A stretch of DNA of 37,148 bases from Patescibacteria group bacterium. GTDB taxonomy: Bacteria; Patescibacteriota; Minisyncoccia; Minisyncoccales; GWA2-38-27. Position 1 is the stretch's first letter, and each line of letters begins with the position of its first letter. The DNA lies in the NCBI GenBank assembly GCA_018830125.1, contig JAHJSY010000001.1, positions 1 to 37,148 on the forward strand, in the 5' to 3' direction. Under the pieces are notes generated by a model. That model saw nothing but the letters and a program-made list of their open reading frames with translations. It was not told the DNA's origin and searched no databases. This document shows positions 1 to 31,864 of this stretch, one piece after another. A program made the translations under genes and the position numbers.

Positions 1-40
1 AAACAAAAAGTCCTTTGTGATTAAACAAAGGGCTTTTTGT
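1..40. terminator. Bidirectional rho-independent terminator
   Basis: AAAAAGTCCTTTGT-gatta-AACAAAGGGCTTTTT hairpin, A-rich on one side and T-rich on the other. Confidence 0.75.
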
Positions 41-42
41 TG

Positions 43-115
43 TGGACCCGGCGGGAGTTGCACCCGCTTCGCTGGGTGTCAACACCAGCTTGTTAACTAA
101 ATACAATACGGGCCC
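43..115 (-). tRNA. tRNA-like gene, atypical (TTGACAC suggests Val-GAC; loop register ambiguous)
   Basis: Minus strand GGGCCCG TA TTGT-ATTTAGTTA-ACAA G CTGGTGTTGACACCCAG CGAA GCGGG-TGCAACT-CCCGC CGGGTCC A. 7-bp acceptor with G3:U70, D-like and T arms; T-loop lacks canonical TTC; no encoded CCA. Confidence 0.5.
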
Positions 116-139
116 ACGGATCCACGCATTTATTATAAA

Positions 140-175
140 ACAAAAAAGAGCTTCTTAAAAGAAGATCTTTTTTGT
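140..175. terminator. Terminator-like hairpin between the minus-strand leader and the tRNA-like element
   Basis: ACAAAAAAGAGCTTC-TTAAAA-GAAGATCTTTTTTGT, one mismatch in the stem, T-run on both strands. Confidence 0.65.
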
Positions 176-224
176 GACACCCAGCTTGTAGGCTCGTATT
201 GTACGAACATACTAGTGTACTTGA

Positions 225-252
225 ATTATAGCAAACCATACTCCTTTGTCAA
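225..252 (-). promoter_or_regulatory. Consensus sigma70-type promoter
   Basis: Minus strand TTGACA (252-247), 16-bp spacer, TATAAT (230-225). Confidence 0.75.
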
Positions 253-18849: not shown

Positions 18850-19527
18850 ATGGAAAAATTAATTGTTGCTAATTGGAAGATGAATCCGGGGACTTGGCAA
18901 GAAGCTGAAGAGCTTTTTGGTGCGGTAAAAAAGACAGGAGCTGTTATTTGCCCTCCGTTTATATATTTAAAAAGTTTGGCTCCTTATGAAAATCTTGGGG
19001 CTCAAGATTGTTTTTATAGAGAGAAGGGGCCTTATACTGGAGAAATTTCTGTGACCATGCTTAAAGATTTGGGATGTAAATATATTATAATTGGCCATTC
19101 AGAAAGAAGAAAGTATTTTAATGAAACAGATGAAGATATAAATAAGAAAGTTAAAACTGTTATAGAAGCTGGGCTCATTCCAATAGTTTGTGTTGGAGAA
19201 ACAGAAGAAGAAAGAGAGAATAATAAAACGGAAGAAATCTTAGAAAAAGAAATAAGAGATGGTTTAGATGGAATTGATTATTCTAAGATAGTTATTGCCT
19301 ATGAGCCAATTTGGGCTATTGGAACAGGTAACGCTTGTGATATAGAAGAAGCCGAGAGAATGAAAGAAGTAATTCAAAAAATGACTTCTAAAAATATTAA
19401 GATAATATATGGCGGAAGTGCTAACGCTGACAATGCCGATGGTTATTTAAATCAAGCTAACTTTGATGGCCTCCTCGTCGGCGGTGCTTCCCTAAAACCA
19501 GATGAATTCAAAAGAATTACGGAATAA
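18850..19527 (+). CDS. tpiA: Triosephosphate isomerase
   Basis: VANWKMNP, IIGHSERRKYFNETDEDI, IAYEPIWAIGTG, YGGSANADNADGYL. Confidence 0.96.
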   Translation: MEKLIVANWKMNPGTWQEAEELFGAVKKTGAVICPPFIYLKSLAPYENLGAQDCFYREKGPYTGEISVTMLKDLGCKYIIIGHSERRKYFNETDEDINKKVKTVIEAGLIPIVCVGETEEERENNKTEEILEKEIRDGLDGIDYSKIVIAYEPIWAIGTGNACDIEEAERMKEVIQKMTSKNIKIIYGGSANADNADGYLNQANFDGLLVGGASLKPDEFKRITE

Positions 19528-21169
19528 GTTTTTAAAGTATTTTGAAGAAAGAGGGCATAAAATTGTGCCTTCTAGTTCTTTGATCCCGAAAGATAGCACT
19601 GTTTTATTAACAACAGCTGGAATGCAACAGTTTGTGCCTTATCTTTCTGGAGACCATGATGCTCTTAAGGAACTTGGCTCCTTGCATTTGGCTTCAGCCC
19701 AGAAGTGCTTTAGGGCTGTTGATATTGATGAAGTTGGAGATGATACTCATCATACTTTTTTTGAGATGCTTGGAAATTGGTCTATTGGCGTTAATGATAA
19801 AGGAGAATATTTTAAAGAAGGAGCTATTAAGTTTGCTCTTGGTTTTTTTGTTGACGAGCTTGGTTTGGATAAAGAGGAATTACATATAACGATATTTAAG
19901 GGAGATAAAGATATTCCCAAAGATGAAGAAGCAAAAAGAATATGGTTAGAAAATGGTATTTCAGAAGATAAGATTCAGGAAATGGGAATGGAAGATAACT
20001 TTTGGGGGCCAACTGCTCAAACGGGACCTTGTGGGCCTTCATCGGAAATCTACTATAATGGTGTTGAAATATGGAACTTAGTTTTCATGGAGTATAATAA
20101 AAAAGTTAATGGAAGCTTTGAAAAATTAGCTCAAACCAATATAGATACGGGTATTGGCTTTGAGAGATTGCTTTCTCTACTTAATGGTGTTGACTCTGCT
20201 TATGAAACAGACTTGTTTAAATCGGTTATCGAAAAGATTGAATCCAAAGATATAAAAACTTCAAGAATAATAGCCGACCATATTAGAGGAGCTTGTTTTC
20301 TAATTGCTGATGGAATTATTCCAAGCAATACAGAAAAAGGATATATTTTAAGAAGAATTTTAAGAAGAGCTATCAGATTTGGGAAATCAGTCGATTTAAT
20401 CGATGTCGCTAAGGTGGTTATTAATGAGTATAAAGATATATATCCTGAATTAGAAAATAATAACATTTTAGATGTTATTAGGGAAGAACAAGAAAAGTTT
20501 GGAAAAACTTTAGAAAATGGTCTTAAGCAATTTGAAAAATTAGATAAAATAACAGGGGACGATGCTTTTAATCTTTATCAAAGTTATGGATTCCCTTTTG
20601 AGCTTACGCAGGAATTAGCTGAAGAAAAGGGGATAGACGTTGATGAAAATGCTTTTAAAAATGCTTTTGAGAAACATCAGGAGCTTTCTCGGAAAGGAAT
20701 GGAGCAGAAATTTAAAGGAGGATTGGCTGATACTTCAGAGCAAACAACAAAATATCATACAGCCACCCACCTACTTTTATCGGCTTTAAGAGAGGTTTTA
20801 GATAAAGATGTTTCACAGAAGGGAAGCAATATTACGGCTGAAAGAATAAGGTTTGATTTTAATCATGATGCTAAGCTGACCGAGGAAGAAGTTAAGCGGA
20901 TTGAAGATTTAGTTAATGAGAGGATAAAAGATGATTTGGAAGTAAAGTTTGAAGAGATGCCTCTGGATCAGGCAAGAAGCGATGGGGCAGTTGGTGTTTT
21001 TGGAGAGAAATACGGAGATGTAGTTAAGGTTTACACTATCAATTCTTTCTCAAAAGAAATTTGTGGTGGTCCTCATGTTAAAAGAACTTCAGAATTAGGC
21101 CATTTCAAAATTACCAAACAAAAATCCCCCGGAGCCGGCATACGTCGCATCCGTGCAATTTTAGAATAA
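19502..21169 (+). CDS. alaS: Alanyl-tRNA synthetase, short form (555 aa)
   Basis: MNSKELRNKFLKYFEERGHKIVPSSSLIP; editing motifs HTATHLL and CGGPH; ends after editing domain, no C-Ala domain. Confidence 0.95.
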   Translation: MNSKELRNKFLKYFEERGHKIVPSSSLIPKDSTVLLTTAGMQQFVPYLSGDHDALKELGSLHLASAQKCFRAVDIDEVGDDTHHTFFEMLGNWSIGVNDKGEYFKEGAIKFALGFFVDELGLDKEELHITIFKGDKDIPKDEEAKRIWLENGISEDKIQEMGMEDNFWGPTAQTGPCGPSSEIYYNGVEIWNLVFMEYNKKVNGSFEKLAQTNIDTGIGFERLLSLLNGVDSAYETDLFKSVIEKIESKDIKTSRIIADHIRGACFLIADGIIPSNTEKGYILRRILRRAIRFGKSVDLIDVAKVVINEYKDIYPELENNNILDVIREEQEKFGKTLENGLKQFEKLDKITGDDAFNLYQSYGFPFELTQELAEEKGIDVDENAFKNAFEKHQELSRKGMEQKFKGGLADTSEQTTKYHTATHLLLSALREVLDKDVSQKGSNITAERIRFDFNHDAKLTEEEVKRIEDLVNERIKDDLEVKFEEMPLDQARSDGAVGVFGEKYGDVVKVYTINSFSKEICGGPHVKRTSELGHFKITKQKSPGAGIRRIRAILE

Positions 21170-31406: not shown

Positions 31407-31435
31407 TTGACAGGAATAAAATAGTATGCTATACT
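31407..31435 (+). promoter_or_regulatory. Consensus-like promoter upstream of an 18-codon ORF
   Basis: TTGACA, 17-bp spacer, TATACT. Confidence 0.75.
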
Positions 31436-31495
31436 TATAGCAGTTAGTTGAACCAAAAATGTTCGTTGAAACCTATATTTTGAAGGAGAAAGAAA

Positions 31496-31552
31496 ATGAG
31501 AAAATTAACTCTACAGAAAACTTGGCCTACTTTAAGATCGGTACTTTTTTAA
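31496..31552 (+). CDS. Candidate 18-aa small peptide
   Basis: AAGGAG upstream of MRKLTLQKTWPTLRSVLF*; promoter upstream. Confidence 0.35.
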   Translation: MRKLTLQKTWPTLRSVLF

Positions 31553-31600
31553 TCCTTGATTTTTGTTTAGTGTTTTGAAGTGTTATAATAGAAATGCTGT

Positions 31601-31668
31601 GGGGGTGGCTTGGTGCAGATCCCGGATTACCACCTGAGGATCTGGGGGTTCGATTCCCCTCACCTCCA
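31601..31668 (+). tRNA. Atypical tRNA-like element (68 nt)
   Basis: GGGGGTG acceptor with CACCTCC (G3:U70 type), T-arm GGGG-TTCGATT-CCCC, but a 7-bp stem CAGATCC/GGATCTG with 15-nt loop in place of D and anticodon arms. Confidence 0.5.
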
Positions 31669-31696
31669 CAGTAGTTTAGTTTTCCACAGCAGGCTA

Positions 31697-31724
31697 TTGA
31701 CAATATGACTCAATTTGTTATACT
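31697..31724 (+). promoter_or_regulatory. Consensus-like promoter for the short RNA before murA
   Basis: TTGACA, 16-bp spacer, TATACT. Confidence 0.7.
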
Positions 31725-31730
31725 AGCGGC

Positions 31731-31798
31731 AAGGTGGTAATTCGGGATTCTGTTTCAAGCTAGAAACTCCCAGAGTCGCTATTTATTGGCGACTTTTT
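31731..31798 (+). ncRNA. Small RNA candidate (~68 nt)
   Basis: Promoter at 31697-31724; GTTTC-aagcta-GAAAC hairpin; terminator AGTCGC-loop-GCGACTTTTT. Confidence 0.6.
31774..31798 (+). terminator. Rho-independent terminator
   Basis: AGTCGC-TATTTATTG-GCGACT with TTTTT. Confidence 0.75.
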
Positions 31799-31828
31799 GG
31801 TTACTTGATTTATCTATCAATAAAATTC

Positions 31829-31864
31829 CATAAACTTTCATACTCTAGAGCGTGAAAGTTTATG
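31829..31864. repeat. Perfect 12-bp inverted repeat upstream of murA
   Basis: CATAAACTTTCA-tactctagagcg-TGAAAGTTTATG. Confidence 0.85.

Follow-up and report, generated by a model that had tools for sequence, protein, structure and literature searches.

A tRNA-like RNA with alanine identity elements and its adjacent antisense RNA in Patescibacteria

The locus upstream of murA

The window analysed here, a stretch of 37,148 nt from the genome of a Patescibacteria group bacterium (G000; 0.62 Mb in 55 contigs), carries upstream of murA an RNA element that resembles transfer RNA (tRNA) and, downstream of it on the same strand, a short RNA gene whose predicted product is antisense to that element. 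The tRNA-like RNA (TLS1) was placed at 31597..31671 (+) by the covariance models R2 and R3 described below and by covariation. Its acceptor stem is formed by 31601-31607 and 31661-31667, i.e. 7 bp proper or 11 bp with an extension, and contains G3:U70, with A73 at 31668. Below the acceptor lie a stemless D-loop (GCTTGGTGC), a central stem of 9 bp with an 8-nt loop (ATTACCAC) and a T-arm with the loop TTCGATT. A -10 element for TLS1 was read from the sequence at 31584..31589 (+; TATAAT, extended by TG at 31581-31582), and a -10-like element directly upstream of the stem is retained in most homologous loci.

An earlier note on this DNA, made from the letters alone, had described a short RNA with its own promoter, and this promoter (TTGACA-16-TATACT) was found by promoter scan at 31697..31724 (+). 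The antisense RNA 1, delimited by sequence, folding, complementarity and promoter, would extend from the predicted start site to the terminator at 31731..31799 (+). Since the -10 element ends 7 nt ahead of it, the antisense block begins at the expected transcription start. Three segments face TLS1: block a (31732..31749, +) is complementary to the loop and the 5' strand of the central stem, block b (31749..31761, +; TCTGTTTCAAGCT) imperfectly to the D-loop region, and block c (31769..31774, +; CCCAGA) to TCTGGG on the 3' side of the central stem, a match that is short here and stronger in many homologues. The terminator proposed earlier is plausible by eye and on folding (AGTCGC-loop-GGCGACT followed by TTTTT, about 31772-31798), and a probable intrinsic terminator was accordingly assigned to 31772..31799 (+), although the consensus terminator scan listed no site in the region.

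The complementarity of 17 nt with one G:U pair, between ATCCCGGATTACCACCT (31619-31635) and AGGTGGTAATTCGGGAT (31732-31748), was recovered exactly as first described, and the alternative hairpin within the short RNA (GGGA with TCCC) was also predicted by folding. TLS1 scored 16.6 for complementarity with its own downstream region and at most 11.6 with that of any other member of the family, and the 99th percentile for shuffled loops was 10.3. Folded as a single RNA, 31598-31801 gave -92.2 kcal/mol (z -7.3), a very stable joint fold which arises because its arms are complementary. ARAGORN did not call TLS1 as a tRNA, and Rfam, at its own cut-offs, recognised no family in the window. Three features had not been noticed before: pairing that continues into the D-loop, identity elements for alanine in the acceptor stem, and another pair at the opposite end of the window.

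Structure, pairing and distribution of the family

A DNA search detected three further copies of the TLS, two of them in the same related genome and the third in a second one. Two of these three are followed by an RNA complementary to their own element, with different letters, and the remaining copy, close to the end of its contig, has no such RNA. The covariance model R2, derived from TLS1 alone, detected clear members (E ≤ 1.2e-6) in 23 of the 384 genomes searched within the class. R3, derived from 40 members, had matches in 39 of the 380 genomes searched within the phylum, with up to six per genome; the E-values are rough, the models having been calibrated only briefly. One low-scoring match (L199) was a true tRNA-Ala. 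The distribution across the searched genomes is sporadic. Model search located 63 TLS, and an antisense RNA adjoins 52 of them.

Structure and identity were counted in an alignment of 53 TLS members. Changes on both sides occur at 23 of the 25 base pairs, and 329 alignment cells show such double changes, compared with 93.6 in shuffles. Overall 93.5% of cells are paired, a count somewhat inflated by the fitting of the alignment to the structure; sliding the pairing partners along the alignment abolished the covariation signal. The acceptor has 7 bp, usually lengthened by up to four pairs into leader and trailer, followed by the stemless D-loop, the central arm (9 bp, 8-nt loop) and the T-arm (5 bp, 7-nt loop). 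Acceptor and T-stem covary, and acceptor pairs 4-7 exchange freely among G-C, C-G, A-U and U-A. At T-loop position 55, U (38 members) and C (one member) always occur with GG in the D-loop and G (14 members) always with AG, so that the covariation between positions 18 and 55 holds in 53 of 53. This corresponds to the elbow contact of tRNA, and the L-shaped tRNA fold has thus probably been maintained.

Both G3:U70 and A73 were found in 51 of the 53 members, and CCA is encoded by 13. Together G3:U70 and A73 form the signature recognised by alanyl-tRNA synthetase (AlaRS), which also underlies the alanine charging of transfer-messenger RNA (tmRNA) (PMC3968760, PMC9976931). G000 has G3:U70 together with A73 in tRNA-Ala and in two other RNAs, predicted as tRNA-Ile(tat) and tRNA-Ser(tga), and these two proved to be further TLS members. 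The consensus of the central loop, N-U-U-R-N-C-A-N, is like that of an anticodon loop plus one base; read as an anticodon, it would mostly give GUC or AUC, and also GAC, ACC and GCC. The central stem has the combined length of a D-stem and an anticodon stem. An alanyl-tRNA synthetase gene is present at 19502-21169 of the window; its product of 555 aa has the domains tRNA-synt_2c and tRNA_SAD only, and the usual C-terminal part is therefore missing.

The main set for scoring the antisense RNAs comprised 47 pairs in which the antisense lies downstream of its TLS. A promoter with a TTGA-type -35 and a -10, in the same layout as in the window, stands just ahead of the complementary block in all 47 (2.6% in shuffled sequence), with a median of 7 nt from the end of the -10 to the block, and a hairpin followed by TTTT was seen in 44. 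The mean duplex energy was -42.9 kcal/mol with the own partner and -22.4 kcal/mol with swapped partners, and the own partner ranked best in 39 of the 47 pairs. The order along the antisense RNA is block a (loop), block b (D-loop) and, often, block c (3' strand); for blocks b and c the true pairing was better than all permutations (0 of 5000 shuffles as good). As the strands of the TLS stem are complementary to each other, block c has a second complement, part of block a, within the antisense RNA itself, so that covariation cannot separate its two uses. The main scoring rule left out five further partners, those of L140 and L178 (antisense gene upstream of the TLS), L146 (one mismatch), L157 and L197.

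No such antisense partner was found for 97 of 99 ARAGORN tRNAs from the same loci, and the other two (L195 and an element on contig C36 of G000) are TLS miscalled as tRNA-Ile(tat). The earlier note had named loss of the complementarity in homologous loci, with no compensatory change, as the observation that would speak against an antisense pair. Instead, pairing was retained, and compensatory changes preserve it across more than 50 related loci, which strongly supports that interpretation. Dozens of matched pairs, each with its own sequence, across a group of bacteria with tiny genomes indicate that the pairing is real. Where a genome carries several pairs, the best fit of every antisense is to its own mimic, as with the four copies in G304; the possibility that one antisense serves several mimics per genome was rejected, the same-genome combinations tested being largely orthogonal.

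G000 itself contains at least three pairs. The second lies at the contig end (window 1-252, minus strand) in swapped order, with the antisense gene before the TLS. The promoter of antisense RNA 2 was read from the sequence at 225..252 (-; TTGACA at 252-247, 16 nt, TATAAT at 230-225). The predicted RNA (about 141..218, -) contains TACAATACG (203-195) and GCTGGGTGTCA (185-175), exact complements of the TLS2 segments CGTATTGTA and TGACACCCAGC, and then a terminator. TLS2 (40..119, -), miscalled tRNA-Ser(tga) by ARAGORN, has its own -10 (TATAAT, 137-132) and its own terminator (38-1). The third pair, on contig C36 (L200), consists of a TLS-type RNA with a D-stem (43961-44037), miscalled tRNA-Ile(tat), and the antisense TAGGTATAAGTT, which follows TTGACA and TATAAT elements. 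Odd predictions of tRNA-Ser(tga) and tRNA-Ile(tat) in genomes of this kind are thus accounted for by the TLS family. A further odd tRNA-like sequence on the same contig (57242-57322; L202) combines a G3:U70-like acceptor with an anticodon loop of 10 nt (CGGATTATTG).

TLS also occur in viral contigs (L162:7131-7205, L166:2197-2269, L167:1021-1095 and L169:4029-4105), where G3:U70 and A73 are kept, and phage genes are present on the contigs of L162 and L169. BLAST against named phages and plasmids found no family member. A match in Synechococcus phage S-CAM1 was rejected, being the known tmRNA of cyanobacterial type. A scan of contigs, with a gap set one base too short, gave one match, at a contig end (L160, Acidimicrobiaceae). 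Rfam 15 did not recognise the family, nor any of the 20 member loci tested, and no description of it was found in the open-access literature. RNA pairs of this type appear not to have been described before.

Comparison with known RNA classes

Against the tRNA family (RF00005) TLS1 scored 17.0 bits (cut-off 29). The stacking of acceptor on T-arm and the elbow between D-loop and T-loop are those of tRNA, whereas the TLS lacks a D-stem, and its central stem (9 bp) and loop (8 nt) differ in size from the usual anticodon arm of 5 bp and 7 nt. The best Rfam match was tmRNA (RF00023), at 29.3 bits (cut-off 47). Like the tRNA-like domain of tmRNA (RF00023; PMC3968760), the TLS combines G3:U70 and A73 with a reduced, stemless D-loop, a T-arm of tRNA type and a helix where tRNA has its anticodon arm. 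Unlike tmRNA, it is about 75 nt long, has no message domain, tag frame or pseudoknots (15-20 nt stand where a domain of 300 nt would be expected), and has a dedicated antisense RNA. The permuted form (tmRNA_permuted, RF04321) was rejected, with 14.2 bits (cut-off 47) and both acceptor strands within one 75-nt RNA. G000 also has a normal tmRNA (contig C30) and more than 30 ordinary tRNAs. The mascRNA/menRNA family (RF01684), a weak match at 21.1 bits, is likewise tRNA-like, with T-arm and acceptor and no normal lower half; those RNAs are human, are cut from long RNAs and have no antisense partner.

Adjacent RNAs of which one is antisense to the other, the arrangement of a type VIII toxin-antitoxin system, were found here on sequence evidence. 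The type VIII systems SdsR-RyeA and CreTA likewise consist of two RNAs, without a protein, in which RNA is matched to RNA, and for CreTA neighbours on the same strand within 200 bp are allowed (TADB 3.0, PMC10767807; PMC8501985). They differ in that SdsR-RyeA lies on opposite strands, CreA works via Cascade, and neither has a tRNA mimic. The pseudo-tRNA tRNAOther of Bacillus cereus is also tRNA-like, stands outside translation and has a phenotype; the part of its description that was consulted mentions no antisense partner or alanine acceptor signature (PMC3399842).

In terms of specificity, the TLS pairs resemble antisense RNA pairs of plasmids. Both ColE1 RNA I/RNA II and CopA/CopT rely on recognition of a loop by its complement, and have fast co-evolving specificity and orthogonal pairs. 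Such antisense RNAs are made from the opposite strand of their target, whereas at the TLS loci examined the two genes are neighbours on the same strand.

Proposed function and alternative explanations

On balance the sequence evidence leans towards cognate inhibition, in which the antisense keeps an alanine-accepting tRNA mimic inactive, as part of an RNA-only module like a toxin-antitoxin system or of a regulated non-coding alanine carrier. The locus would give rise to two separate small RNAs, the first a compact tRNA mimic with the G3:U70 and A73 read by AlaRS. The second, starting about 7 nt past its -10, would pair with the loop and the 5' stem strand of the mimic, then with the D-loop, and often with the 3' strand. 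With blocks a, b and c bound, the central arm would be opened, its loop covered, the D-loop occupied and the elbow broken, while acceptor and T-arm would stay paired. Given a loop resembling that of an anticodon and a stem as long as D-stem plus anticodon stem, inhibition of an alanine-accepting mimic by its own antisense is the simplest account. The mimic itself may be a toxin, a decoy for factors of translation or rescue, or a useful donor of alanine. Structure, identity elements, covarying pairing, separate promoters and orthogonal pairs within one genome were observed in the sequences; transcription, 3'-end maturation, alanine charging, inhibition, and toxicity or some other activity are inferred. 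Charging with alanine would make the TLS an alanine-accepting RNA besides tRNA and tmRNA, in some of the smallest bacterial genomes.

Several observations weigh against this account. Two members do not have G3:U70. In many members the discriminator and CCA positions are paired within the extended stem, which should impede maturation and charging unless the RNA is processed beforehand. No antisense was found within 350 nt of 11 of the 63 TLS located by model search or of the four in viral contigs, so that the mimic may act without one. The absence of a protein partner and of consistent neighbours means that there is no outside clue to function.

A more specific proposal, which we put forward tentatively, is that the mimic acts as a toxic RNA in translation. 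Charged with alanine, and offering its anticodon-like loop on the long central stem, it would place alanine at wrong codons or jam ribosomes or rescue factors, and the co-evolving antisense would be the antitoxin that covers precisely this loop. The pair would then serve addiction or defence with no protein involved, in many mutually orthogonal versions, and some of the mimics would also be borne by phages. An antisense acting as antitoxin would define a protein-free type of toxin-antitoxin system founded on a tRNA mimic.

It is unlikely that the second RNA instead assembles with the TLS as a partner, by analogy with two-piece tmRNA, into a particle in which intermolecular helices would stand in for the lower half of a tRNA. 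Blocks a, b and c do spare the acceptor and T-arm, and two intermolecular helices would meet in the resulting junction; the alanine signature, the stemless D-loop and the best Rfam match all point to the tRNA-like domain of tmRNA. Inspection of the antisense RNAs by eye, however, revealed no tag peptide or common open frame; the D-loop that forms the elbow would be base-paired in the complex, some TLS have no nearby partner, and G000 already has its normal tmRNA.

Less probable still is a TLS serving as decoy (sponge) for a small RNA whose true mRNA targets lie elsewhere. The complementary segment does lie at the 5' end of the small RNA, the usual position of a seed, and a tRNA fold would make the decoy stable. 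Against this, the D-loop and 3' strand are also paired, so that the small RNA matches the entire lower half of the TLS; it diverges along with the TLS, a change that mRNA targets, if fixed, would oppose; and a decoy would have no reason to retain G3:U70 and the elbow.

The earlier note had also considered a switch between two folds of one transcript of about 200 nt upstream of murA. The tandem arrangement of the two RNAs in the window, with no terminator between them, and the very stable joint fold would suit such a switch governing murA. It is contradicted by the swapped-order loci (window 1-252 on the minus strand, L140 and L178), in which the antisense gene precedes the TLS and has a promoter and terminator to itself, indicating two distinct RNAs rather than one switch or a murA leader, and we regard it as very improbable. 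The link to murA did not hold either: no protein family is common to the flanks of the member loci, and in relatives with the same order of a PEGA gene and murA the gap is about 70 nt with no such RNA inside, so that the gap of roughly 680 nt with the RNA pair is extra here. A cis-regulatory leader (T-box or attenuator of murA) was rejected on the same grounds. Degenerate tRNA or tmRNA debris with chance complementarity, which the weak, sub-threshold tRNA and tmRNA scores might suggest, can be dismissed in view of the covariation in stem, elbow and duplex and of the promoter in place in every scored pair.

Some smaller features were noted in addition. Just upstream of TLS1, 31407-31552 contains a TTGACA-17-TATACT promoter, a ribosome-binding-like sequence (GAAGGAGA) and a frame of 18 codons (MRKLTLQKTWPTLRSVLF), and is overlapped by a weak match to freshwater-2 RNA (E 0.32). 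In the relative at L073 (genome G007) a different inverted repeat (CCCCGTTAGAGATT...AATCTCTAACGGGG) is inserted in the murA gap, at about 1380-1450. An AT-rich inverted repeat at 31822-31864 of the window has near copies on contig C33 of G000 and on contig C12 of the relative G010, and is possibly a small repeat element.
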